A DNA stretch of 16,188 nucleotides from a bacterium (GTDB lineage Bacteria > JAHJDO01), in NCBI GenBank assembly GCA_030611945.1, contig JAUWOV010000040.1:1-16188 (forward strand), given 5' to 3'. This document shows positions 2,311 to 16,188 of the stretch, one piece after another (position 1 is the stretch's first letter; every line of letters begins with the position of its first letter). A program made the position numbers and the translations under genes. The notes under the pieces are model-generated. The model made no database searches. It was not told the origin of the DNA and worked only from the letters and a program-made list of their open reading frames with translations.

Positions 2311-4008
2311 CTATTTATTAACAATTTCTATTCTATCTTTTGAGATCCATTTCAGAAAGGTAGGCTCTTTCAACACCGATGAAATCAAATATACTTTTCT
2401 TTTTGTTCTGGATAGTGCGACAAGAAAATTACAAATTTCTTGATCTGTGATTTTAGTTTTGTCGTTATCCTTCACAAAGTACCGATTATCAAAATGAGTG
2501 ATAAAAACCAAGTCCCCTGCAAGACCTTTTGAACTTTGAATTGTTGTAGCTTTAATTGGTATTTTTCTAATTGCAGGATTGCCAATTCGCTGAAGGGTAG
2601 AATTTATTTCCTTCTTTAAAAATTCTTTTGATACTCCATAGGGATCAAATTTAATTTTTTTCAAAACCTCATCAAAATCATTATTATTAACAGGTTTGTT
2701 ATTCATGATGCATCTAAGAACTTTAAGCATGTTCTTCACTTCAATTTTATAACTGGGGTCAATAAGTTCATGAATCTTTTTATCTGGATATAAATCAGTA
2801 TTTTTTAATAAAGAAATAAACTCTTCTTTATGTATAAAAAATTTAGAAGCTATTCGCCAACCAAGATTATCTTTCTTATCTTTAAGAAGGAGTTTGATCC
2901 CATCTAATAAGGTTATTTCTGGCTCATCTTTAATTGCATACTCAATATTTTGCAAACCTTTTCCCTTTAAGACTTCAGCTATCGTATAAGATTGTTTTTT
3001 GAAAGGAGAAATAATCAACACTGAAAAATTGCTTTTCGTATCTTCTGCCATTTCTCCTATCTTCTTTTCAATAAACCAAGGAATTTGTTTTGCGAATATC
3101 TGTGAGTAGCCAATTTTTGAATATCTTTCACTTTCCTTATCTTTTTCTTCTTCGTCGAAATATGTAAATGGCTTATTAATACGTCCAATTAGGAAACCAG
3201 ATTTCTTAGCAGCGCCAATTATGTCATTAGTTGCATTAACAACAACGCGTGTGCATCGAGCACAAAAAGGCAAATTAAATGATTCATAATCGGGCATTTC
3301 TTTACCGTGTCTTTCGCGTATATGACGAGTACTAGCACTCTTAAATTCATAAAGAGCTTGGTCGTCATCACCTGCTAATAGAATTGGACTTTTTTCAGCG
3401 AGTAAATTAATAAGCGAAACCTCCAGTTTGTTGAAGTCTTGAAATTCATCAACGAGAATCTGATCATAAACTGGTATTTTATCCTTATATTTTTCAAAAT
3501 ATTTTACAGCAGCAAATATTATGTCTGCGTACCCATAATAATCATAATATCCTTTCCGTTTTTTATAGAATTTTATAAATTCATTCTTATCGTCTCTATT
3601 ATGGAATAATTTATCAAAATCAACCTTTTTGCCTATTAAAATTTCAGCATCGTGTTGTATTACTTTAGAAAGTTTCGGAGAAATCTTAATATTTTTTTTT
3701 GTAATTATACTAAGAATACTTCGGGTAAAACTGTGAAGGGTTCTTACATCTGACAAACCATATAATTCAAGGGATAAATCTTCTACAAGAGAATTTATAA
3801 AAGTTAGTGTAAGTGAATTTTGTTTGCCTTCAAGTATTTTTTTAAAAAGATAGGTTTTGCCAGTTCCTGGGCCTGCTACTACTACTTTTTTAGTTGACTG
3901 AGAATACAATATTGCCTCAACATGCTTTTCTCTGTCACACTTAGTGTTAGCGTATTTTATTTCTTTTGATACTGTCATTTTTATTCTATTGTTTTCTCTC
4001 TCATCCAA
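2311..4008 (-). CDS. UvrD-like superfamily 1 DNA helicase attached to the type I R-M operon
   Basis: 565 aa. SF1A helicase motifs in order: Walker A AGPGTGKT (45-52), Walker B DEFQD (187-191), motif III GDDDQALY (213-220), motif V region QSSKGLAGD (491-499) and motif VI VALSRTKRKVYL (530-541). Motif IV, usually NYRS, reads CARC here (249-252), keeping the arginine (R251) but placing two cysteines around it. The protein is shorter than UvrD/PcrA/Rep (about 650-750 aa) and closer in size to defence helicases such as GajB of Gabija, but no GajA-like nuclease is nearby. The given start is TTG, 8 nt inside the end of hsdS, with GAGGTGG just upstream; an ATG at 3978-3976 (residue 11) is an alternative. 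The overlap shows co-expression with hsdS. It may help process DNA during restriction or be an independent anti-phage gene. Sampled blocks are much more A+T-rich than hydA, suggesting a different origin. Confidence 0.88.
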   Translation of the reverse strand: MDERENNRIKMTVSKEIKYANTKCDREKHVEAILYSQSTKKVVVAGPGTGKTYLFKKILEGKQNSLTLTFINSLVEDLSLELYGLSDVRTLHSFTRSILSIITKKNIKISPKLSKVIQHDAEILIGKKVDFDKLFHNRDDKNEFIKFYKKRKGYYDYYGYADIIFAAVKYFEKYKDKIPVYDQILVDEFQDFNKLEVSLINLLAEKSPILLAGDDDQALYEFKSASTRHIRERHGKEMPDYESFNLPFCARCTRVVVNATNDIIGAAKKSGFLIGRINKPFTYFDEEEKDKESERYSKIGYSQIFAKQIPWFIEKKIGEMAEDTKSNFSVLIISPFKKQSYTIAEVLKGKGLQNIEYAIKDEPEITLLDGIKLLLKDKKDNLGWRIASKFFIHKEEFISLLKNTDLYPDKKIHELIDPSYKIEVKNMLKVLRCIMNNKPVNNNDFDEVLKKIKFDPYGVSKEFLKKEINSTLQRIGNPAIRKIPIKATTIQSSKGLAGDLVFITHFDNRYFVKDNDKTKITDQEICNFLVALSRTKRKVYLISSVLKEPTFLKWISKDRIEIVNK

Positions 4009-5101
4009 ACCACCTCTGCATCAGCGCGTTAAAATGATTATCCATTTCCTCTAATGATGTGCGCATTTTTTGTTTTGTTTGTTCCACTTGTTTAACAATA
4101 TCAGCGAATTTGTTCTGCAAATCTATTGGAGGAACAGGAATCGATAATTTTCCCAAATCTTCTTTAGTAATAGCTTCCCTTGTCGCTCCTCCTGCACTTG
4201 CAAGTCGAAGCAAAAAACTTTTAAAACTGCCAGATGTTAACAATAACGACAAATATACCGAGTTAACTTTTTTATTTGGGTGAATGATTGCAACATGTTG
4301 ATTAACTCGCGCTGGCAGAATTTCTTTTGGAACAATTGCACATCTACAAACAGAAGCCCCTGTAATATTAAACAAAACATCATTTTCTTGAACAATAACA
4401 TTTCTAAGGTTTTCTGCCTGCATATCATCTATATAAGCAAGCCCCTTGTATTCGAACATATTATTCTGAATATTCATACTTCTGATTAAAGCTACTCCCT
4501 CATTCTTATATGAACTTTTCCCACCTCTAGGTGTCGCCCCACTGCCTATTTTTGTAGATAGGTCCGACAACTCATGATTAGACCAAGCTTTATTATTCAT
4601 TACCGGATCGCCGAACATTTCAAGAAAAACGGATTTGATATAGTCGTCAAGGATAGTGAGTTGTTCTTTGCGTTTTTTTCGAAGGCTGTCGGCGGTGTCG
4701 AGAATTTCTACAATCTGTTTTTGTTTTTCCAAAGAGTAATTGGGCAATTTAATATCTGTCAGATTAGCCATCTTTATATATTTGATGACTCCGCCTATTG
4801 ATTGATTTCTTAACTTTTCTAAATATTTATTTAAAAAATGAAACAAGAATCTTGCATCTAATTGATTCTTTTGCAAGATTTCAACAACATAGGTTCGCTG
4901 ATAAGCATCAAACTTACCTTTATAATGTTTGATATTCAAATCACCGTTCCCTGCAACAAGCACACATTCACAATCAAAAGAATATGAGTCTATTTTTTCA
5001 GATTTTTGAGCACATGTAAAAAAAGGATATCTTCCATTTCTAACTTTTGCATTTACATCTAAATTGCCTGTTTTAATTTTAGATACATTGCCTAATAGCA
5101 T
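4001..5101 (-). CDS. hsdS: Type I restriction-modification specificity subunit HsdS
   Basis: 366 aa; sets the DNA recognition sequence of the HsdR2M2S complex. Two target recognition domains are visible. TRD1 (about 1-120) starts abruptly with LGNVSKIKTGNLDVNAK. A central helical spacer (about 122-162) contains LEKQKQIVEILDTADSLRKK, and the typical FLEMFGDP follows at 159-166. TRD2 (about 170-325) has WSNHELSDLSTKIGSGATPRG, and a second helical region (326-366) starts PPIDLQNKFADIVKQVEQTK. The two half-repeats fit a bipartite site; TRD sequences do not allow me to predict it. The length is at the short end for the family, mainly at the N-terminus. It starts within the hsdM stop (TAATG, 1-nt overlap) and its TGA overlaps the helicase start, so hsdM-hsdS-helicase are translationally coupled. 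Confidence 0.95.
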   Translation of the reverse strand: MLLGNVSKIKTGNLDVNAKVRNGRYPFFTCAQKSEKIDSYSFDCECVLVAGNGDLNIKHYKGKFDAYQRTYVVEILQKNQLDARFLFHFLNKYLEKLRNQSIGGVIKYIKMANLTDIKLPNYSLEKQKQIVEILDTADSLRKKRKEQLTILDDYIKSVFLEMFGDPVMNNKAWSNHELSDLSTKIGSGATPRGGKSSYKNEGVALIRSMNIQNNMFEYKGLAYIDDMQAENLRNVIVQENDVLFNITGASVCRCAIVPKEILPARVNQHVAIIHPNKKVNSVYLSLLLTSGSFKSFLLRLASAGGATREAITKEDLGKLSIPVPPIDLQNKFADIVKQVEQTKQKMRTSLEEMDNHFNALMQRWFG

Positions 5102-6651
5102 TACAATAATCCTTTAAGTTTGTCTATATCAGCTTCAATCGCTTTATTGTTTTCCTCAATCTTCCCCAAAATCACTTCTGGCTTATCATATTTGGGTGGT
5201 GTATAGTCAATCTCTTTGTAGCGATTAATGCTCAGGTCATATTTATTATCAATGATTTCATTTACCGGCACAAAGAAATGCTTTGCCTTGCGATCATCAT
5301 TTGCATTTTTGTTTCGTGCCTTCCATTCATTAACAATATCCGGTAGGTCATTTACTTCAATTCTGTCACGCTTATCATCCAGCGAATAGCCGTCTGCCTG
5401 CATATCATAAAACCACACTCGTTCAGTTGTACCGCCTTTAACAAATACCACAATGGCAGTGCTAACTCCGGCGTAAGGTTTAAATACACCTGAGGGCATA
5501 GAAACAACACCCTGCAATTCGCAGTCTTCAATAAGCATTTTCCTTAAACTCTTATGAGCATTTGATGAACCGAATAAAACGCCGTCAGGCACAATCACAG
5601 TAGCACGTCCACCGATTTTAAGTGAATTGATAATCCTGTTTACAAAAAGAAGTTCTGTCTTTTTTGTCTTAAGCGATAAATTTTCATTAATATCTCCTGC
5701 ATCAATACTGCCTTTAAACGGCGGATTAGCAAGGACTACATCATACTGATTATCTTCATTGTATTTTTTGGAAAGCGTATCAACTCTTTCAATGTTCGGA
5801 TACGTGATACCATGAAGCATGAGATTCATTAAGCCGATACGAACCATAGTTGTGTCAAAATCATAACCGAAAAATGTTTTTTCACGCAGATCTGTCCACA
5901 AACGCTGATCAGTGAGCTTATCGCCGAATCCACGCTCGAAACCGTCCTCGTCTTTTGTCATATGATTTTTACTGGTATGAGTTGTTAAGATATGTTGATA
6001 GGCTCCAAGTAAAAATCCTCCTGTTCCGCATGCAGGATCGCCTATGGTCTCTCCTATCTTAGGACTTACCAATTCACACATCAGTTTAATAATGTGCCTT
6101 GGTGTGCGAAACTGTCCGTTTTTGCCGGATGATGAAATTTCTGCTAGCAAAAATTCGTACATATCACCCTGTGTATCATGAAATGTCTGTCCAGCTTGCG
6201 TCTGTTTTTCTATTTCAGCATAAAGCGCATCAATAATGCTGACGGCTTCAACAAGAAGCGAGGGTTTGGGAATAATAAACACAGCATCTGCCATGTATTT
6301 GGCAAAAACACTGTTTTCTCCATTGACCTGTTTGATGAATGGAAAAGCCTTTGTCTGTACATGTGTTAACATCTCTCCGCCTTCAAGCTGTTTGAAATGA
6401 CTCCAGCGAAGCGTCTGCCTGTCTAGTTTTTCTTTTGTTGTTGGTAAGATAAATTTTCCCTCAAATACAGAAGTATATTTTTCTCCAGTCCATTCAGCGT
6501 CTTTTTTAAGCTTGCTGTCAATTTCATCTAACCGGCGCATAAATAAAAGATACGATATCTGTTCAATAGCTGTTAATGGATTAGCAATACCGCCGGCCCA
6601 AAAATTATTCCAGAGTTGACTTATTAATGATTTCATTTTTGGCGTTAACAT
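5101..6651 (-). CDS. hsdM: Type I restriction-modification DNA methyltransferase subunit HsdM
   Basis: 516 aa; N6-adenine methyltransferase that uses S-adenosylmethionine and, with HsdS, protects host DNA. The N-terminal helical domain (about 1-150) starts with LWNNFWAGGIANPLTAIEQISYLLF. The catalytic domain shows the pre-motif GQFRTPRHIIKLM (179-191), SAM motif I DPACGTGGF (205-213) and catalytic motif IV NPPF (309-312). LIEDCELQGVVSMPSGVFKPYAGVSTAI is also typical of HsdM. Length is normal for the family. AGAGG lies just upstream of the ATG; 16 nt separate it from hsdR, and it overlaps hsdS by 1 nt. All motifs are intact, so an active modification enzyme is expected. Confidence 0.97.
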   Translation of the reverse strand: MLTPKMKSLISQLWNNFWAGGIANPLTAIEQISYLLFMRRLDEIDSKLKKDAEWTGEKYTSVFEGKFILPTTKEKLDRQTLRWSHFKQLEGGEMLTHVQTKAFPFIKQVNGENSVFAKYMADAVFIIPKPSLLVEAVSIIDALYAEIEKQTQAGQTFHDTQGDMYEFLLAEISSSGKNGQFRTPRHIIKLMCELVSPKIGETIGDPACGTGGFLLGAYQHILTTHTSKNHMTKDEDGFERGFGDKLTDQRLWTDLREKTFFGYDFDTTMVRIGLMNLMLHGITYPNIERVDTLSKKYNEDNQYDVVLANPPFKGSIDAGDINENLSLKTKKTELLFVNRIINSLKIGGRATVIVPDGVLFGSSNAHKSLRKMLIEDCELQGVVSMPSGVFKPYAGVSTAIVVFVKGGTTERVWFYDMQADGYSLDDKRDRIEVNDLPDIVNEWKARNKNANDDRKAKHFFVPVNEIIDNKYDLSINRYKEIDYTPPKYDKPEVILGKIEENNKAIEADIDKLKGLL

Positions 6652-6667
6652 AAAAACCTCTCTTTTA

Positions 6668-9457
6668 TTACGCTATTTTCTGTGTAAGCTGTAGAATCTC
6701 ATCAATTTCATCCGGTTTAAAAACACCTCTTACACCTTCGGGATGAAGCTGTGTAAACGGCGCTTGAATAAGATCCTTCTTTTCCACAACACCTCGTTGC
6801 AGAACAAACGTCTTAAGCGTTAAAATAAACTGAATCTGCTTCTCTCCAAAAGTATTATGTTTCCTCAAAAACTCATCAAAAGCAATAGATACAGTTTCAG
6901 TAAATGTTGTTATCTCTTCAATGCTGAGAATATGTTTAATAAATTGAATAAACTTAGCGCTCTTATTATCGTAAATTTCTTGCAAGATATATTCCGTAAT
7001 GTGCGGATAATGCTCTTTTAAAATATTAGCTAATTCTTCAATTTCTTCATCTGTAATCTCATCACCCTGAACAATTTTTTGAAGCACCGGATTAGTCTTA
7101 ACAAGCGTACAGATAAATTCTTCAACTTTACGCCTATATTTATCTACAGTCATGCGTTCATGCTGAGGTCCAAATTCGATGGTTTCTTTAACTGTTAGTA
7201 AATCCTGAATGTTCAGTTTTTTCTCAGGTGTTTTTTGAGTCTGACGATATTTCATCAATGGAGCAAGATGTGCGATCATTTCATCAAGGTCATCATCCGA
7301 TGCTGTTATCCAGAAATGGTTTGACTGCACTTTTTCTATCCATTCTCTTTCACGCTCAACTACATTGACTGTCATAGGCAATTCACTCACTTTTTCAATA
7401 ATTATTTCTTTAAGTATTTTATAGCGTTCTTCATCGCCTGTGAGTCTTGCTATTTGAGTTTCTATGCCATCCAGCTCAAAACGCATAGCTTTAAAATCAG
7501 CATCAGATAAAACACGCATAAGCGGGCCGATGTGCATACGTAAGTAATCCAGTTTTTCATCCGTTATGTTTATCCAGAAGTTATCATCAGATACTTTTTT
7601 TATAGATTTTTGACTATCCAAAATAACAACGGAATTTTTTGGTAATGCTGCAATATTCCCTCTTATCTTACCGATTGTTTTCGCTTTAACAGATTCATCT
7701 TTTTTCTGCTCGGAAACATACAGCTTATTTATCCGTGCCTCAAACAGTCTGACTGGAAGTGGACGTGTGCTTTTTGGTTCTTTGCCTTTTGGAGTCATTT
7801 TAAAATATTCGAAATTCTCCCAGCAATCTATAATCAGAAACTTTTCTTTTTCAGGACACCATGATTTTATATTATCAGGATCAAGTATGCGTGTGCCTCG
7901 TCCTATCATCTGCCAGAATTTTGTATAAGAAAATACAGGCTTAGCAAAAACAAGGTTCACAATTTCACGCACATCAATACCCGTATCAAGCATATCCACA
8001 CTAATAGCGATGCGAGGCATATCTTTTGTTTTAAAACGATCAAGAATACCACCTTTACCATGAACACCTTTAACGTCTGAAATAATAACTTCCGAAAGTT
8101 GTCCTTTATATTCAGGATAAAGAGCGTTAAAAACTTCACATAGACGATAAGCATGCTTTTTGGAAATAGCAAAGAATATAGTTTTACCCGGAAGAACACC
8201 GTTTGAGTCTTTGATACATTCTTCCATAAACTCACGCACGATAACGGCGTTTGTACCTTTATTGGTGACTTTCTTTTCTAGTTCTGTTCCTTCAAAATTA
8301 AATTCGTCAGGATCTTCGCCGTCTTGACGCAATCTTTTCTTCTCTGCTTCGGCTATGGTCTCGCTATTAATCCCTTCCTGCTGAAATTTAGTGCGAAGTT
8401 TTAAAACTTCAAAGTCAGATAAATATGGCGGGGTATTATTAATCGCTTCTTCATAAGAATAAGCAAATGTCGGCAAGCCGTTTTCGCAATCAAATAATTG
8501 AAACGTATTGTGATCTATAGCGTCTTTTGGTGTTGCAGTAAGGCCAAGCTGTATAGCGTCAAAATAATCGAATATGTTTTTATACACATTATAAATTGAC
8601 CGATGACTTTCATCGGCAATAATTATGTCAAAATAGTGTGGACTTAATGGACAAACTTCCTGTTGTATCAGATTAAGCATGGTCGGGTAGGTCGTGCAGT
8701 AAATACGCCTATCAGGCGCAAATTTTACTTCACCTGTTTTAGGCCAGACAGGGGAATTAGGAAGATACTCTTTAAATGTTTCTAATGCCTGTTCTCTTAA
8801 AGCAATACGATCAACAAGGAATAAAACTTTTTGAGTCCAGTTAGACCGCATCATAACATCTAAAAGCCCCATACAAGTTCGTGTTTTGCCAGTACCTGTT
8901 GCCATAATCAAAAGAAATTTGCGATGCTTCTTTTCTACACGTTCCAACACCGAACGAATTGCCTGAATTTGATATGGTCGTCCAGCAATTGATGTGTTGA
9001 TAAGTTCGCTTGAAAGAACTTTGCAATTTTTCCGTAAAAACTGCATACGTTCAAGATCAGCTATTGTTGGAAACCCAAAGACTTTACGTGGCGGGTAACG
9101 TTCGCTATCCCAGAAAAAAATATCATATCCATTTGTATAAAAAATAAACGGCGTAGGGCCGCCATTACTTTTTTGAATTTTTTCAGCGTAATTGCGAGCT
9201 TGCTCTTTACCGACTTCGGCATCAACTGAAGTTTTTTTTGCTTCCACAACAGCAATAAGTTTGCTATTCCTACCCAGAAGAGCATAATCAGCAAAAAGAT
9301 GACCTTGATATGGAGTTTTAGGCTCGCTAATACCCAATGGCAGACCAACCCATATATCAAGTTCTTGAGTTACTTGCGAAGGATTATGAACATTCCAGCC
9401 TGAGACTTTTAATCTCCTGTCAATGATCTCTCTTCTTGTCTGTGCTTCGTTTTGCAT
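6668..9457 (-). CDS. hsdR: Type I restriction enzyme motor/nuclease subunit HsdR (EcoEI-like)
   Basis: 929 aa; ATP-driven translocase and endonuclease of the type I complex. The N-terminal PD-(D/E)xK nuclease is complete: D57 (FADYAL), E72-x-K74 (VVEAKK) and the QxxxY motif Q86/Y90. The SF2 helicase motor follows: Walker A ATGTGKT (186-192), DESH (282-285), TATP (307-310), and further on SVDMLDTGIDV and QMIGRGTRI. The C-terminal roughly 300 residues form a charged helical domain, as in EcoEI-type R subunits, for contact with HsdM/S. It is first in the hsd operon. An in-frame TAG at 9466-9464 makes ATG 9457 the earliest possible ATG start. Only AGAGA precedes the ATG, and TATAAT lies 8 nt upstream of it. 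No truncation or lost catalytic residue is visible. Confidence 0.96.
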   Translation of the reverse strand: MQNEAQTRREIIDRRLKVSGWNVHNPSQVTQELDIWVGLPLGISEPKTPYQGHLFADYALLGRNSKLIAVVEAKKTSVDAEVGKEQARNYAEKIQKSNGGPTPFIFYTNGYDIFFWDSERYPPRKVFGFPTIADLERMQFLRKNCKVLSSELINTSIAGRPYQIQAIRSVLERVEKKHRKFLLIMATGTGKTRTCMGLLDVMMRSNWTQKVLFLVDRIALREQALETFKEYLPNSPVWPKTGEVKFAPDRRIYCTTYPTMLNLIQQEVCPLSPHYFDIIIADESHRSIYNVYKNIFDYFDAIQLGLTATPKDAIDHNTFQLFDCENGLPTFAYSYEEAINNTPPYLSDFEVLKLRTKFQQEGINSETIAEAEKKRLRQDGEDPDEFNFEGTELEKKVTNKGTNAVIVREFMEECIKDSNGVLPGKTIFFAISKKHAYRLCEVFNALYPEYKGQLSEVIISDVKGVHGKGGILDRFKTKDMPRIAISVDMLDTGIDVREIVNLVFAKPVFSYTKFWQMIGRGTRILDPDNIKSWCPEKEKFLIIDCWENFEYFKMTPKGKEPKSTRPLPVRLFEARINKLYVSEQKKDESVKAKTIGKIRGNIAALPKNSVVILDSQKSIKKVSDDNFWINITDEKLDYLRMHIGPLMRVLSDADFKAMRFELDGIETQIARLTGDEERYKILKEIIIEKVSELPMTVNVVEREREWIEKVQSNHFWITASDDDLDEMIAHLAPLMKYRQTQKTPEKKLNIQDLLTVKETIEFGPQHERMTVDKYRRKVEEFICTLVKTNPVLQKIVQGDEITDEEIEELANILKEHYPHITEYILQEIYDNKSAKFIQFIKHILSIEEITTFTETVSIAFDEFLRKHNTFGEKQIQFILTLKTFVLQRGVVEKKDLIQAPFTQLHPEGVRGVFKPDEIDEILQLTQKIA

Positions 9458-9465
9458 GATTCTCT

Positions 9466-9471
9466 ATTATA
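9466..9471 (-). promoter_or_regulatory. Candidate -10 box of the hsd operon
   Basis: A perfect TATAAT on the minus strand lies 8 nt before the hsdR ATG. At a 17-bp spacing the -35 region reads TTTATG, a poor match. If used, transcription would start within about 2-3 nt of the start codon, giving a nearly leaderless mRNA. Confidence 0.45.
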
Positions 9472-9491
9472 CTCCCCCATCCCAAATTCAT

Positions 9492-9521
9492 AAAGAAAAA
9501 AGGGCACAGCACGCTGTGCCC
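9492..9521 (-). terminator. Probable intrinsic terminator of the hydrogenase operon
   Basis: In the minus direction, GGGCACAGCGTGCTGTGCCC (plus 9502-9521) forms a 9-bp G+C-rich stem and is directly followed by TTTTTTCTTT. It lies downstream of hydA and the satP remnant and upstream of hsdR, where an operon end is expected. The stem is at the same time the palindrome of a REP-like repeat. Confidence 0.75.
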
Positions 9522-9526
9522 CTACA
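9502..9526 (-). repeat. REP-like palindrome with TGTAG foot, right copy
   Basis: On the minus strand TGTAG is followed by GGGCACAGCGTGCTGTGCCC. It is identical to the left copy at 2206-2230 except for one G-C pair of the stem replaced by A-T on both arms, so pairing is kept. Its orientation is opposite to the left copy. Confidence 0.7.
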
Positions 9527-9535
9527 AAAGCAAAG

Positions 9536-9560
9536 GGCGGAGACAAGCTCCGCCACTACA
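9536..9560 (-). repeat. Second TGTAG-footed palindrome right of the R-M block
   Basis: On the minus strand TGTAGT is followed by GGCGGAG-CTTGT-CTCCGCC, a 7-bp stem with a 5-nt loop. It has the same foot and orientation as the neighbouring element at 9502-9526, about 10 bp away, so the two form a tandem pair. Confidence 0.6.
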
Positions 9561-9627
9561 ATACAAAATTCAGCAACCGGTTTATCATCAGGATTCAATC
9601 TTTTTCCGGCAACAACATCATTCCCTT

Positions 9628-9738
9628 TTATAAGCTGGATAAGTTAAGCACTGTAGTCATTCCAAAGCCCATCAAACCGAGTGGGGCAGGATTAGATGTA
9701 GTATCCTCCTGTCTGGTTATTCGTATTTCTTTTTCCAT
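9628..9738 (-). pseudogene. satP: N-terminal remnant of a SatP/YaaH (GPR1/FUN34) acetate transporter
   Basis: Found by hand in the gap between hydA and hsdR. From ATG 9738-9736 it encodes 36 residues and a TAA. Residues NPAPLGLMGFGMTTVLNL match the signature of the GPR1/FUN34/YaaH family (N-P-[AV]-P-L-G-L-x-x-F followed by GMTT), which moves acetate and succinate across the cytoplasmic membrane. Intact members have about 180-210 aa with six membrane helices; here the sequence breaks off just after the signature, within the first helix. The ATG follows the hydA TAA without a gap (TAAATG), and AAGGA sits 7 nt upstream inside the hydA end, so the remnant is probably still translated. I do not find the rest of the gene in the window; REP-like palindromes start about 70 nt downstream. 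The reading after the stop is unrelated to SatP. Confidence 0.8.
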
Positions 9739-11517
9739 TTATATTCCTTCTTTTTTGTTTGTATAAGTTGTATGCAGAAGATGATGGGATTTTCCCCCGA
9801 GTGGTTTCTCAAGAAATTCTTCATATATCTGCTTTATTGCTGGATTTTCGTGAGATTTTCTGAGTTTTCTGCCTTCATCCTCTTTGTATATTGCGTTTAT
9901 CCTTGCCTGTCTTACTTCGTCAGTCGTCATTCTTGGCTGTCCGCCTCCACCGATACAGCCTCCGGGACATGCCATGATCTCTATGAAGTGATAGGATTTT
10001 TTGCCGCTTTTTATTGATTCTATTAGTTTCTTTGCATTTCCAAGACCATGAGCAACAGCAACATTTAACGTAACGCCTTCAAGAAATCTCCAATCCTTCG
10101 TTGTGCCTTCTATCTTGAGAGAGGCTTCCTTTACTCCTTTTAAGCCTTCAACAGGCGCAATACGCAATCCTTTAAACGGTAGCTCTTTCCCTGTAACAAT
10201 TTCATACGCTGTCCTGAGAGCGGCTTCCATAACTCCGCCGGTATTTGCGAATATATCTGCAGCGCCTGTTGATATGCCTAGAGGCGCATCCATTTCCTCA
10301 TCAGGAAGATTCACAAAGTCTATGCCAGCCTGTTTGATAAATTTACCTAATTCTCTTGTTGTCAGCACATAATCAACGTCCTTAACTCCGCTGTCGTTCA
10401 TCTCATCTCTATTGCATTCAAATTTCTTGGCAGTGCACGGCATGATAGATACCACTACTATATCCTCTTTTTTCTTGCTAATTTTGTCGGCATAGTATGT
10501 TTTTGCAACAGCTCCGAACATCTGCTGAGGAGACTTGCAAGTAGATACATTGGGAATTAGTTCAGGATAAAAGCTCTCCATATAATTTATCCATCCTGGC
10601 GAACATGAGGTAAACATTGGCAAAGCTACATTTTTATCTTTATCAACAAGCGCCTTCTTCAATCTCGTAAGAAGCTCCGTCCCTTCTTCCATAATAGTTA
10701 AATCAGCAGTAAAGTTAGTGTCAAACACCTTGTCAAATCCAAGTCTTTTGAGAGCTGCAGTCATCTTTCCTTTGATCAAAGTACCCGGTTCTAAATCAAA
10801 GCATTCTCCCAAAGCGGCACGGATTGCAGGAGCAGTCTGAACAACCACAAACTTGTTTGGGTCGTCAATAGCTTCCCATACCCTGTCAATATCATCTTTT
10901 TCGCTTATTGCCCCAACAGGACAAACCGCAGCGCACTGTCCGCACTGAACACAAACAGCCTCTGCAAGCGTATCAAACTGTCCGGGAGCGATAATCGTAT
11001 CAAATCCTCGCGCTCTTGGAGCTAATGTATCTACCCCCTGAACCTCATGGCATACACTGACGCATCTTCTGCAAAGAATGCATTTATTAGGATCTCTGAT
11101 GATGCCGGGAGTGCTTTCATCCAGAGGCATTCTCTCTCTTACTGGTGGGAATCTAACTTCCTTAATACCATATTCATCCGCCAGCTTTTGAAGTTCGCAG
11201 CTCTGATTGCGATCACAGGTATTGCATTCCCATGGATGATCGCTTAAAAGCAGCTCCAATATTATCTTTCTGGCATCACGCACCTTTTTTGTGTTGGTAT
11301 AAATCTTCATGCCTTCGGAAACCTTTGTTACACATGAGGGCTGAAGCGCTTTAATTCCTTCCACTTCCACAATACACATTCTGCATGATCCGGGGCTCTG
11401 AAGACCATCCAGATAACATAAAGTTGGTATCTTTATTCCAATCTTTTTAGCAGCATCCAGAATCGTTGTATCTTCTGACACTTCCACTTGGGTATTATTT
11501 ACTGTAATGTTCAGCAT
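9739..11517 (-). CDS. hydA: [FeFe]-hydrogenase catalytic subunit HydA (NAD(P)-linked, bifurcating type)
   Basis: 592 aa. Reversible H2 formation in a soluble multi-subunit complex. Domains in order: a [2Fe-2S] ferredoxin with C34, C45, C48, C62; a His-ligated [4Fe-4S] site H94/C98/C101/C107; two [4Fe-4S] clusters (C146, C149, C152, C156 and C189, C192, C195, C199); then the H-cluster domain with L1 TSCSPGW (303-309), L2 MPCTAKKFE (359-367) and L3 MACPGGCIGGGGQP (515-528, ligands C517 and C521). The C-terminal small-subunit-like part holds RKSHENPAI and LLHTTY. The layout matches HndD/HydA of trimeric or tetrameric NAD(P)-linked hydrogenases, though it lacks an extra C-terminal [2Fe-2S] domain. 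L1 has Ser306 where the best-known enzymes have a second Cys. AAGGAG lies 9 nt before the ATG, and the gene overlaps hydB by 7 nt. The maturases HydE, HydF and HydG are not in the window. Confidence 0.96.
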   Translation of the reverse strand: MLNITVNNTQVEVSEDTTILDAAKKIGIKIPTLCYLDGLQSPGSCRMCIVEVEGIKALQPSCVTKVSEGMKIYTNTKKVRDARKIILELLLSDHPWECNTCDRNQSCELQKLADEYGIKEVRFPPVRERMPLDESTPGIIRDPNKCILCRRCVSVCHEVQGVDTLAPRARGFDTIIAPGQFDTLAEAVCVQCGQCAAVCPVGAISEKDDIDRVWEAIDDPNKFVVVQTAPAIRAALGECFDLEPGTLIKGKMTAALKRLGFDKVFDTNFTADLTIMEEGTELLTRLKKALVDKDKNVALPMFTSCSPGWINYMESFYPELIPNVSTCKSPQQMFGAVAKTYYADKISKKKEDIVVVSIMPCTAKKFECNRDEMNDSGVKDVDYVLTTRELGKFIKQAGIDFVNLPDEEMDAPLGISTGAADIFANTGGVMEAALRTAYEIVTGKELPFKGLRIAPVEGLKGVKEASLKIEGTTKDWRFLEGVTLNVAVAHGLGNAKKLIESIKSGKKSYHFIEIMACPGGCIGGGGQPRMTTDEVRQARINAIYKEDEGRKLRKSHENPAIKQIYEEFLEKPLGGKSHHLLHTTYTNKKEGI

Positions 11518-12815: not shown

Positions 12816-13280
12816 TTATTTCCTTTCCCTTTCTTGAATTTGGTCCAATATTTTGCATATTTTTTTTTCGTTTAAATTTCCGTAGGCTTCGTCATTGATC
12901 ATCATAGCAGGAGCAACTCCGCAAATTCCAAGACAACTTGTTCCCTCTAATGTAAAAAGACCATCGTCAGTTGTCTCTCCAACCTTAATTCCTAATTTTG
13001 ACTCTATCGCTTCAAAAATAGTTTGCGCGCCTAGAATATGGCATGGTGGACTCTCACAAACTCTGATTATATATTTACCGCGCGGAGTAAAACTAAACAT
13101 AGTGTAGAAAGAAGCTGTTCCCTTAATTCCAGATACAGGGATGTCCATTTCTTTACTTAACTCATAGATAGCCTCTTTACAAATATAGTTATTCGGATTT
13201 TGATTTTGAACATCATGCAATATCTGCAACAAATTCTCTCTTTTATTTCCGTATTTTTTAACAATTTCTTTTGTTGTCAT
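12816..13280 (-). CDS. hydC: HydC/NuoE-like [2Fe-2S] subunit of the hydrogenase complex
   Basis: 154 aa, normal for NuoE/HydC. An N-terminal helical bundle (about 1-65, with NLLQILHDVQNQNPNNYICKEAI and GTASFYTMF) is followed by a thioredoxin-like [2Fe-2S] domain with ligands C75 and C80 (VCESPPCHILG) and C116 and C120 (TSCLGICGVAP), the normal spacing. In HydABC it carries electrons next to the FMN of HydB. The ATG overlaps the TGA of the upstream fusion gene by 4 nt and has a strong ribosome binding site (GGAGAGG). The stop is 3 nt before hydB. It could serve either of the two NuoF proteins encoded on each side of it. Confidence 0.95.
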   Translation of the reverse strand: MTTKEIVKKYGNKRENLLQILHDVQNQNPNNYICKEAIYELSKEMDIPVSGIKGTASFYTMFSFTPRGKYIIRVCESPPCHILGAQTIFEAIESKLGIKVGETTDDGLFTLEGTSCLGICGVAPAMMINDEAYGNLNEKKICKILDQIQERERK

Positions 13281-16188
13281 AGCCTCTCCTCTTCTTCCTT
13301 ATACTCACAACGCAGACATCTCTCTGCTTCTTTACAAGAAGTCTTTTTGCTCCATGTTTTTTCAACTTCTGCAAAAGATTTCCTTTCTTCTAACGGAATT
13401 AAAATATTCTTCGCTCTCTTATGACTAACAGGTTCTTCTTCCGGATCAAAGTCAACTTTGATTGGATCCATAACGTTCCAAGGATATTCATTTCTGCCGC
13501 CTATTAAATATTTATCAATAGCCTTTGCTGCTCTCTGCGCTTCTCCAATTGCCTCTACTACAGTAGAAGGACCTGTCACTACATCACCACCGGCAAACAT
13601 ATCTTTCGTTAAATCTTTATCAAATAAAATCCCTAGAGATGGTTTCTGCCCGATAGCTAAAATTAATGAATCAATTTTCTTGGTAAAATAAGACGATTCT
13701 ATCTCAACAGGTCTTCGTCTGCCTGATTTATCAAATTCGCTAAGTCTCATCTTTACAAATTCGACTTCCAGCTTATTATTAATTGACCTGACTGATTTAA
13801 TGTTTTGAAGAAGCTGTATCTTTATCCCCTCGTTTTCCGCCTCCTTAATTTCCTCTATTTCAGCAGGCATTTCCTCTCTGGTTCTGCGGTATACAACTGT
13901 AACTTCTGCGCCAAGCCGTTTTGCTGTCCTCGCAGCATCAATTGCTGTATTTCCCCCGCCAATAACGACTACTTCCTTTCCTACCTTTGTTTTTTCTCCG
14001 TTATTTACCTTATACAGGAAATCCAATCCGGCCATAACTTTCTCATTATCTATTCCTTCAATGCGAGGCATAATAGACTCCCCTGCGCCAGCAGCAAGAT
14101 AAAAAGCTTTAAAGCCTTGTTTTCTAAGTTTGTCTATACTGATATCCTTTCCGATATTTGTACCGGTTTTTATTTTTACGCCGTATTGACATAAAGCCTG
14201 AATTTCTTTCTCCACAATATTATTAGGAAGTCTATAAGAAGGAATAGCGTAAGTAAGCATTCCTCCTGCTTTGGCTTCAGATTCAAAAACAGTGACATCA
14301 TATCCAAGCGTAGTTAAAAAATAGGCATTGGATAAACCTGACGGACCAGAACCGACTACAGCTACTTTTATTCCGTTGGATTTCTGCTTTTCAGGGAAAC
14401 ATTCCAGATATTCTTCTTCTGCGATAAAACGCTTTACAGAACGAATATTTACCGCTGAATCAATATCGTTCCTTCTGCATTTTGATTCACACTGGTGAGG
14501 ACACACACGTCCGCAGACTGCGGGGAACGGATTAGTTTTTAAATGAACTTTTAAAGCTTGTTTTAAGTTGCCCTCCTTGGTATAGGCAAGATAGGCAGAT
14601 ACATTTACAGAAGCAGGACAAATATTAGAACATGGGGTATATACTAATTTTAAACATACTCCTGCGCGGCATTTTTTATCTTGAATATGCTCAATATATT
14701 CTTCTCTAAAATATTTCAAAGTAGATAAAATCGGATTAGGAGCGGTTTGACCTAAGCCGCAAAGAGCGGTCTGTTTTATCTGAAGTGATAATTCTTCAAG
14801 GATATCCAAATCATCCATTTCGCCTTTTCCTTCACAGATTCTGGTAAGAATGTCCAGCATAATTCGTGTTCCTTGACGGCATGGCGTGCATTTTCCGCAG
14901 GATTCTTCCTGAATAAATTCCATAAAATAGCGCGCCAGATCAACCATGCAGGTATCTTCATCCATTACAATCAATCCGCCCGAACCCATAATAGCGCCTA
15001 GTTCCTGTAATGATTCATAGTCAACAGGTACATTTAAGTGCTGGATTGGAATGCATCCTCCCGAAGGACCGCCAATCTGAACTGCTTTCAATTTTTTATT
15101 ATTTGGAATACCTCCTCCGATATCATAGATAATTGTTCCCAGCGGCATTCCAATCGGTATCTCAATAAGACCTGTATTATTTATATCTCCTGCCAGAGCA
15201 AAAACCTTTGTTCCTCTGCTTTTTTCAGTTCCAACAGAAGCAAAATCATCAGCCCCCTGTAAAATTATATAAGGTATGTTGGCAAAGGTTTCTACATTGT
15301 TTAATACTGTTGGGCAGTCAAACAGACCCTTTTGAGCAGGAAAAGGAGGTTTTGGACGCGGTTCTCCTCTCATGCCTTCTATGGAACGCATAAGCGCAGT
15401 TTCCTCTCCGCATACAAAAGCGCCAGCACCCATCCTGATCTCTATATCAAAATTAAAACCTGTTCCAAGAATGTTTTTCCCGAGAAGCTCATTCTTCTTT
15501 GCCTGTTCAATGGCAAGCGACAACCTTTCCACTGCCAGTGGATATTCCGCGCGAACGTACACATATCCCTGATCCGCGCCAATAGCATAACCGCATATCA
15601 TCATGGCTTCCATCACACTATGCGGATCTCCTTCCAGAATACTTCTGTCCATGAAAGCGCCGGGGTCGCCCTCATCAGCGTTGCATACCACATACTTCTG
15701 TTCTCCCGTGGATGCAGCAGTAAGCTCCCACTTTAAACCCGTTGGGAATCCTGCTCCTCCACGTCCTCTAAGACCCGATCTTTTGATTTCTTCAATCACT
15801 TTACGCGAAGTCATTTTCGTCAACGCTTTTCCAAGAGCCATATATCCGTCAGCAGCAATATATTCCTCAATATCAAGCGGATTGATAATCCCGCAATTCC
15901 TGAGAGCTATTTTTTTCTGAAGCTTGAAGAAATCAATATCATTAAACATTTCCACCATTTCTTCGGTCTTTGGCTTTTTGTAAAAAAGACGTTTAACCAC
16001 TCTTCCTTTTAGCAAATGTTCACGGACAATTTCCTCCGCATCTTCAGGTTTGACATTCTGGTAAAATACTCCGTCAGGATAAACAATCATAATCGGACCT
16101 AACTCACAGGTTCCCATACACCCAGTAGTTATAACATCAACTTCATTTTGAATGCCCACTTCGTTTATTGCTTTCTCCATTGCTCCCT
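13277..16188 (-). CDS. NuoF/HydB-GltD/NfnB fusion flavoprotein (5' end outside window)
   Basis: At least 967 aa counted from a Met at 16180; the frame stays open to the edge. Residue numbers start at that Met. The second half of a thioredoxin-like [2Fe-2S] domain (TTGCMGTCELGP, C21, C25) lacks its first cysteine pair, which should lie upstream. A NuoF core follows: GRGGAGFPTGLKW (139-151), GAGAFVCGEETAL (251-263) and the [4Fe-4S] site C428, C431, C434, C474. A GltD-like module then begins: cysteines 504, 509, 517, 521 and CGRVCPHQCESKC (C556, C560, C564, C568), FAD fold VAVVGSGPSGLSNAYF (606-621), second dinucleotide fold VVVIGGGNTAIDAARTA (737-753) with YRR (764-766), which favours NADPH, and the FAD-closing AGGDVVTGPSTVVEAI (863-878). 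The tail carries C949, C955 and C958. The usual HydB C-terminal ferredoxin domain is replaced by the GltD module. It probably links NAD(H), NADP(H) and ferredoxin/H2 in one complex with HydCBA; an Nfn- or Stn-like transhydrogenase role is possible. Confidence 0.93.
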   Translation of the reverse strand, partial: GAMEKAINEVGIQNEVDVITTGCMGTCELGPIMIVYPDGVFYQNVKPEDAEEIVREHLLKGRVVKRLFYKKPKTEEMVEMFNDIDFFKLQKKIALRNCGIINPLDIEEYIAADGYMALGKALTKMTSRKVIEEIKRSGLRGRGGAGFPTGLKWELTAASTGEQKYVVCNADEGDPGAFMDRSILEGDPHSVMEAMMICGYAIGADQGYVYVRAEYPLAVERLSLAIEQAKKNELLGKNILGTGFNFDIEIRMGAGAFVCGEETALMRSIEGMRGEPRPKPPFPAQKGLFDCPTVLNNVETFANIPYIILQGADDFASVGTEKSRGTKVFALAGDINNTGLIEIPIGMPLGTIIYDIGGGIPNNKKLKAVQIGGPSGGCIPIQHLNVPVDYESLQELGAIMGSGGLIVMDEDTCMVDLARYFMEFIQEESCGKCTPCRQGTRIMLDILTRICEGKGEMDDLDILEELSLQIKQTALCGLGQTAPNPILSTLKYFREEYIEHIQDKKCRAGVCLKLVYTPCSNICPASVNVSAYLAYTKEGNLKQALKVHLKTNPFPAVCGRVCPHQCESKCRRNDIDSAVNIRSVKRFIAEEEYLECFPEKQKSNGIKVAVVGSGPSGLSNAYFLTTLGYDVTVFESEAKAGGMLTYAIPSYRLPNNIVEKEIQALCQYGVKIKTGTNIGKDISIDKLRKQGFKAFYLAAGAGESIMPRIEGIDNEKVMAGLDFLYKVNNGEKTKVGKEVVVIGGGNTAIDAARTAKRLGAEVTVVYRRTREEMPAEIEEIKEAENEGIKIQLLQNIKSVRSINNKLEVEFVKMRLSEFDKSGRRRPVEIESSYFTKKIDSLILAIGQKPSLGILFDKDLTKDMFAGGDVVTGPSTVVEAIGEAQRAAKAIDKYLIGGRNEYPWNVMDPIKVDFDPEEEPVSHKRAKNILIPLEERKSFAEVEKTWSKKTSCKEAERCLRCEYKEEEERL

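Follow-up and report, generated by a model that had tools for sequence, protein, structure and literature searches.

The 16,188-nucleotide stretch of DNA analysed here (the window) is the whole of contig JAUWOV010000040.1 (C57) of GCA_030611945.1 (G000), a metagenome-type assembly of 119 contigs and 1.66 Mb, and it ends within a gene that joins a BfuB-type (HydB/NuoF) subunit to a GltD module in one polypeptide. We propose that this fusion, together with NuoE (BfuC) and the [FeFe]-hydrogenase HydA, constitutes a hydrogenase that splits the electrons of H2 between nicotinamide adenine dinucleotide (NAD+) and its phosphate (NADP+), a reading to which we give a little less than an even chance. 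Somewhat more tentatively, we see in it a widespread class of flavin mononucleotide (FMN)–iron-sulphur (FeS) bifurcating enzymes in which NADP(H) is the low-potential partner, third substrates (H2, formate, methyl-THF, quinone and others) are interchangeable and BfuB modules have been exchanged repeatedly, the HydA of the window's genus serving also a non-bifurcating NADH module. The architecture, cofactor ligands, conservation and partner genes are observed; from these we infer complex formation, electron route, coupling and nucleotide specificity.

The gene is a single open reading frame (ORF) that runs past the end of the contig; judged from the copies on contig C95 of the same genome and in the congener G004, about 26 residues are lost from the 5' end. 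Pfam analysis of the encoded chain reveals a partial thioredoxin-like 2Fe-2S domain (residues 11–56), Complex1_51K (134–305) and SLBB (329–376) in the N-terminal half, followed by NADH_4Fe-4S (416–500), Fer4_20 (505–592) and Pyr_redox_2 (607–883). In the congeners G004 and G003 the fusion ORFs are unbroken and share 90–92% identity with the window copy, and in-frame junctions are found at other loci, which rules out a missed stop or an assembly artefact. The sequence-only reading, which had described a NuoF(HydB)–GltD fusion in one polypeptide and named a missed stop or assembly join as the danger to it, is confirmed by the ORF, the Pfam order, the congeners and at least 118 further loci. An AlphaFold model of the window fusion, calculated with 59 alignment rows, has a predicted local distance difference test (pLDDT) score of 90.4 and a predicted template modelling (pTM) score of 0.88; in a structure search of the PDB, no chain among the matches listed spans both halves.

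The N-terminal half carries the BfuB domains 51K FMN (IPR011538; PF01512), SLBB (PF10531) and NADH_4Fe-4S (PF10589), and its nearest PDB chains are bifurcating BfuB/HydB subunits. The B1, B5 and B2/hinge ligands are all present. At the positions by which bifurcating β-subunits are recognised (Ala/Glu-232, Met-234, Phe-367 and GGPSG; Losey 2020, PMC7311640), the fusion has A, M, F and GGPSG, in agreement throughout. These features are general among fusions: the A/M pair at the NADH site, the Phe near the FMN and GGPSG are found in 96–99 of 99 sequences, and the B1 and thioredoxin-domain cysteines in 97–99.

The definition of BfuB also includes a C-terminal 4Fe-4S ferredoxin domain (IPR017896) with clusters B3 and B4 (Schut et al. 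2022, PMC9304861). The Pfam scan found no Fer4-type ferredoxin domain in the fusion, and Fer4_20 and Pyr_redox_2 stand in its place; the start of GltD coincides exactly with the start of the B3/B4 ferredoxin domain in BfuB, and the ungapped junction is common to all fusions. The His and Cys residues of the B2 site, assigned according to PMC9304861, are kept, HIQDKKCRAGVC being aligned to H525/C531/C536 of A. mobile BfuB, and these ligands of B2 (or of a Zn hinge) lead straight into the first cluster cysteine of Fer4_20. Judged from its residues, the fusion may work like a Bfu enzyme, yet it is not a canonical member of that family.

The GltD half had been labelled NfnB, which proves too specific. 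It is a better match to T. sibiricus NfnA and StnC than to NfnB, relative to which it is circularly permuted: the RCLxC segment is C-terminal in the fusion and in StnC, and N-terminal in an NfnB-like protein of the window's genome. Lys585 lies at the same offset as K170 of StnC, a position occupied by Lys in 97 of the 99 fusions and by Glu in none, and the Glu ligand of the flavin adenine dinucleotide (FAD)-proximal cluster of NfnB is absent from the window fusion and from all 99. An Arg equivalent to NfnB R201 is present in every one of the 99. In the GltD family, an Arg-Arg pair lies in the loop that binds the 2'-phosphate of NADP, and the presumed counterparts are conserved in 97/99 and 98/99 fusions. 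A Glu at the FAD-proximal cluster also occurs in non-bifurcating GltD proteins, so the Lys alone is not decisive. Nevertheless, StnC shares this Lys, its FAD is regarded as non-bifurcating on the basis of structure and mutagenesis (PMC10482914), and the GltD FAD of the fusion most likely merely transfers electrons. A GltD of the StnC type speaks against the proposal in PMC11406978 that the FAD is a second bifurcation centre.

The fusion operon includes no NfnA partner, whether in the window, on C95 or in G004. The window's genome does encode a separate NfnA/NfnB-like pair of 307 and 478 residues (L210:3545-5880, contig C31), so a ferredoxin–NADPH link is possible outside the fusion. Elsewhere in the genus, 1480-residue proteins that combine GltD with further FAD and ferredoxin domains adjoin short redox-type genes (L040:2817-7256 and L198; G001 and G004).

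The architecture is widely distributed. An alignment of seven fusions, drawn from six families, is gap-free across the junction, and we used the 25 junction residues, comprising the BfuB hinge His/Cys ligands and then the first Fer4_20 cysteines, as a DNA pattern. It matched at least 118 loci in a named genome collection. Among the matches listed, 118 of 118 are in-frame fusions, spanning some 25 phyla by record titles, which can err for metagenome bins, and the carriers include Moorella thermoacetica, Pelotomaculum terephthalicicum, Halanaerobium polyolivorans and Pontiella sulfatireligans. In a sample of 385 genomes from about 258 families, 38, about a tenth, contain the pattern, and the reversed pattern gave no match in the same genomes. 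The window holds one match, compared with none in 200 shuffles.

The genes around these loci, again among the matches listed, point to the company the fusion keeps. Upstream genes could be read at 90 loci, and at 78 of these a NuoE gene lies no more than three genes ahead of the fusion. The gene next after the fusion, at the 84 loci not cut there, encodes an H-cluster HydA in 32 cases, a short NuoG-like chain in 19 and an FdhF-like protein in 11. Most of the 32 HydA genes overlap the fusion or lie within about 30 bp of it, and M. thermoacetica, P. terephthalicicum and H. polyolivorans have the fusion beside HydA; in G028 the set is NuoE–fusion–HydA alone, with no other NuoF adjoining. The earlier suggestion that the fusion forms a complex with the hydrogenase is well supported by this conservation. 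Other partners are a NiFe-hydrogenase-like subunit (L075), molybdopterin formate dehydrogenase-like subunits (L130 and L038) and NuoA-B-C-D-like, that is complex I-like, genes recognised by protein starts only (G025). Canonical Bfu enzymes have a similar set of partners (PMC9304861). Since the partners vary as the third-substrate modules of canonical Bfu do, GltD is not in the third-substrate place, and from the gene sets NADP(H) appears to substitute for ferredoxin rather than for the third substrate.

MetVF and Glu_synthase-domain partners extend this range. At L098:636-3800 the fusion is followed by MetV (DUF5981) and MetF, which suggests a methylene-tetrahydrofolate reductase tied to an NAD/NADP Bfu core. 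At L064:5573-7246 and L044:3867-5444 a short NuoG-like chain and a Glu_synthase-domain protein come directly after NuoE–fusion, possibly forming a bifurcation-linked glutamate synthase-like enzyme. Two fusions beside FdhF-like genes, of Desulfobacca type (L070:1800-5198 and L121:2440-5841), lack the motif at the FMN site as well as the cysteines of the thioredoxin domain and keep the GltD half; these have perhaps turned into pure NADP(H) subunits.

Fused and unfused proteins are intermingled in trees calculated from the NuoF half, and the starred branches require at least five changes; these are quick trees with a small unfused sample of 19 proteins. A single fused clade, as expected if the fused NuoF half had arisen once and been inherited vertically, was rejected (p-AU 9.7e-5, approximately unbiased test). 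The fused protein of L053 pairs with L024, which has the ferredoxin domain, and the fused protein of L174 with L025, which likewise has it and belongs to the same genus; both forms are encoded together in several genomes, among them G028, G042, G044 and M. thermoacetica DSM 21394. The interleaving and the rejection of a single clade make the two C-terminal modules of BfuB look interchangeable. That the junction is always of the same length suggests joints that are constrained or have been used again, possibly through recombination in homologous domains.

Downstream of the fusion lie NuoE2, NuoF2 and HydA, connected in turn by a 4-base overlap, a 3-base gap and a 7-base overlap, so that the order fusion–hydC–second NuoF–hydA of the sequence-only reading is borne out (Table 1). 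That the fusion leads the operon is an artefact of the contig end. Contig C95 ends in the first 208 residues of a fusion gene, where its overlap with the edge of the window is 551 bp long and 92% identical in nucleotides, and before them carries genes for CBS-type, DRTGG, PHP, HATPase, HndB-like and NuoE1 proteins (DRTGG and HndB labelled by sequence reading, the others backed by Pfam). The same order occurs on one contig of G004 (L029), with an intact fusion ORF of 996 residues, HndB-like, NuoE1 and regulator genes upstream, and NuoE2–NuoF2–HydA downstream. The fusion is therefore not the first gene, and in the full set NuoE and NuoF-type chains are each encoded twice and HydA once. C95 may be the upstream part absent from the window or, at that identity, a strain variant of it. 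Genes for BfuC (NuoE) and BfuA partners adjoin the fusion, NuoE2 and HydA in the window and NuoE1 on C95 and in G004. The window gene order is repeated in L132 and, without NuoE2, in L072 (Kiritimatiellota). The L132 record, in which the two fusion halves are 76% and 46% identical to the window's, is titled Akkermansia muciniphila and is possibly a mislabelled bin.

NuoF2 retains the B1 and FMN motifs, and the hinge ligands and ferredoxin domain are gone. At the positions of Losey 2020 it has T, K, Y and GGTAG, departing from the bifurcating type at each, which fits a non-bifurcating β-subunit. The thioredoxin-like domain is kept with its cysteines lost in NuoF2 of G003, G002, L072 and L132, and is absent altogether in the window and G004; in sequence, NuoF2 reads as a degenerate BfuB turned plain NADH module. 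The NCBIfam 'group A6' assignment was considered as a sign that HydA pairs with NuoF2 and was discarded, as the HydAs of fusion-only operons score equally.

Table 1. Features of the window and their positions
Feature	Position	Strand	Remarks
BfuB(HydB/NuoF)–GltD fusion gene	13277..16186	-	969 residues present; 5' end cut off
Junction motif H-I-x4-C-x3-V-C-x2-L-x3-P-C-x3-C-P	14616..14689	-	Pattern match and conservation
GltD module	13280..14653	-	Fer4_20 two-cluster, FAD and NADP-type Rossmann domains; C-terminal RCLRC segment
NuoE2 (NuoE/HydC-like [2Fe-2S] subunit)	12816..13280	-	Overlaps the fusion gene by 4 bases
NuoF2 (second NuoF), 433 residues	11511..12812	-	No thioredoxin domain, B2 H/C/C motif or ferredoxin domain
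HydA, [FeFe]-hydrogenase	9739..11517	-	Three H-cluster motifs: TSCSPGW, MPCTAKKFE, EIMACPGGCIGGG
Type I restriction-modification island	2311..9720		Inserted in a transporter-like gene
Transporter-like gene, first 25 residues	9646..9720		92% identical to G004 copy
hsdR	6668..9457		Named by sequence reading
hsdM	5101..6651		Named by sequence reading
hsdS	4001..5101		Named by sequence reading
UvrD-like helicase	2311..4008		Named by sequence reading

Beyond HydA, the restriction-modification island interrupts a transporter-like gene, the remainder of which is absent.

In the mechanism that we favour, the fusion would be a BfuB-type bifurcating core in which the ferredoxin module has been swapped for an NADP(H)-FAD module. 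Electrons from H2 would pass via HydA to the BfuBC core and be split there, one branch reducing NAD+ at the FMN and the other running through the hinge region and the two Fer4_20 clusters to the FAD and NADP+, giving 2 H2 + NAD+ + NADP+ = NADH + NADPH + 2 H+, or the same reaction in the opposite direction. NADP(H), which as a rule is the more reduced of the pools, would act as the low-potential partner in ferredoxin's stead, the GltD FAD serving only as a relay. In the window's genus, NuoE2–NuoF2 would probably provide a second, direct and non-bifurcating NADH outlet for HydA. The sequence-only reading had joined the H2, ferredoxin, NADH and NADPH pools in one complex; a link between H2, NADH and NADPH is plausible, but that to ferredoxin is unsupported because it is precisely the ferredoxin domain that the fusion lacks.

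Several points weigh against bifurcation between the two nucleotides. We found no assay or biochemical study of such an enzyme in the open-access literature, and the conservation of the junction residues in the survey is partly built in by the pattern design. The H/C/C site is disputed, being a [2Fe-2S] cluster in one account (PMC9304861) and a Zn hinge in others (PMC9499530, PMC10482914), so that it is uncertain how electrons would enter GltD. The ferredoxin clusters of HydABC depend on a bridge that moves, and a module of some 450 residues may not be mobile in that manner. Moreover, M. thermoacetica encodes a 710-residue, 75.4-kDa NADH_4Fe4S–GltD protein without an FMN domain (L164), adjoining fdhA; its computed mass fits the 76-kDa β-subunit of the NADP-dependent formate dehydrogenase. 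That enzyme of M. thermoacetica is cited in PMC6288185. The L164 protein suggests that electrons could pass from B1 straight to GltD with no bifurcation, and it is the precedent for the main alternative, an uncoupled dual-nucleotide hydrogenase in which B1 feeds FMN/NAD+ and Fer4_20/FAD/NADP+ independently and H2, NADH and NADPH are equilibrated. The closeness of the H2, NADPH and NADH potentials at low H2 is in keeping with this. We nevertheless consider it unlikely, if deserving of serious attention, since the fusion retains the FMN-site residues, the SLBB GGPSG, the thioredoxin-domain cysteines and the hinge ligands, all of which the non-bifurcating NuoF2 of the same operon has lost.

It is also conceivable that the fusion and NuoE1 form a separate transhydrogenase, or an enzyme with another partner such as formate dehydrogenase, only co-transcribed with a NuoE2–NuoF2–HydA hydrogenase. 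The congener G002 (96% complete) has HndB–NuoE2–NuoF2–HydA without NuoE1 and without the fusion, and in L130 (Atribacterota) a closely related fusion, the halves of which are 80% and 63% identical, lies beside FdhF. However, NuoE–fusion–HydA sets without another NuoF are common, G028 being an example, the window HydA is 65% identical to HydAs directly behind fusions at other loci, and the genes overlap; we regard a separate enzyme as improbable. A slimmer chance still attaches to double bifurcation, in which the GltD FAD would bifurcate as in NfnB, giving two sites, with ferredoxin possibly still served at Fer4_20. Zheng and Huang 2024 raise an FAD centre of this kind, and the four joined pools of the sequence-only reading come near to it. 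In its favour are an FAD/NADP domain homologous to NfnB and the invariant counterpart of R201; against it stand the Lys in place of the NfnB Glu, the StnC-type permutation, the non-bifurcating FAD held for StnC (PMC10482914) and the location of the NfnAB-like pair on C31, away from a fusion locus that has no NfnA-like partner.

In the Bfu enzymes with assays in the accessible literature the donor is coupled to ferredoxin and NAD+, or in one clostridial complex to ferredoxin and NADP+. If bifurcation between NAD and NADP is correct, ferredoxin-free bifurcation would be a strategy common among anaerobes, and the fluxes predicted for bacteria that produce hydrogen or grow syntrophically would change. 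The same core with two low-potential modules, at times in one genome, would offer a direct test of the disputed bridge/hinge mechanism, feasible in M. thermoacetica, P. terephthalicicum and H. polyolivorans, where the fusion is beside HydA.

Among the closest described systems is the sub-type I BfuABC of Hydrogenedentota, in which DPD_II and an FAD/NAD(P) domain replace the B3/B4 domain of BfuB in a hydrogenase cluster (Zheng and Huang 2024, PMC11406978). The likeness, compared by the paper's description only, lies in the DPD_II (Fer4_20) and FAD/NAD(P) domains in place of B3/B4 and in the [FeFe]-hydrogenase cluster. Sub-type I was reported within hydrogenases, whereas the fusion occurs also with other third-substrate partners, has a StnC-type GltD and has been exchanged repeatedly; the window-type operon adds a second, non-bifurcating NuoF. 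We found no other account of the architecture in the open-access literature, and within that accessible literature its breadth, its partners other than hydrogenases, the StnC-type GltD with the evidence that its FAD does not bifurcate, the repetition of the exchange and an operon with two NuoF chains are new.

With HydABC the fusion operon shares NuoE, the BfuB core, an H-cluster HydA and the bifurcating-type residues, but it has an NADP-type FAD module for the C-terminal 2×[4Fe-4S] ferredoxin domain and, in the window, the extra NuoF. The latter agrees in every β-subunit residue criterion with the non-bifurcating NADH-dependent [FeFe]-hydrogenase of S. wolfei and Syntrophus (PMC5626996, PMC7311640); there it is the sole β-subunit, whereas NuoF2 shares an operon and one HydA with a bifurcating-type fusion. 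The M. thermoacetica formate dehydrogenase β-subunit (710 residues, identified by gene neighbour and mass) resembles the fusion in its NADH_4Fe4S domain followed by a K-type GltD and differs in having neither FMN domain nor hinge H/C/C. Finally, StnABC (Nfn-Bfu; PMC10482914, PMC7483475, PMC9304861) has the same BfuB/NuoE core and a K-type, circularly permuted GltD, and the sequence-only reading had thought the window system perhaps comparable to the Sporomusa-type Stn transhydrogenase, with a hydrogenase attached. It is no such enzyme: in Stn the GltD resides in the NuoG-like, A-type subunit StnC, the one for the third substrate, and StnB keeps its ferredoxin domain, whereas in the fusion GltD sits in BfuB at the ferredoxin position, the ferredoxin domain is absent and the third substrate would be H2.

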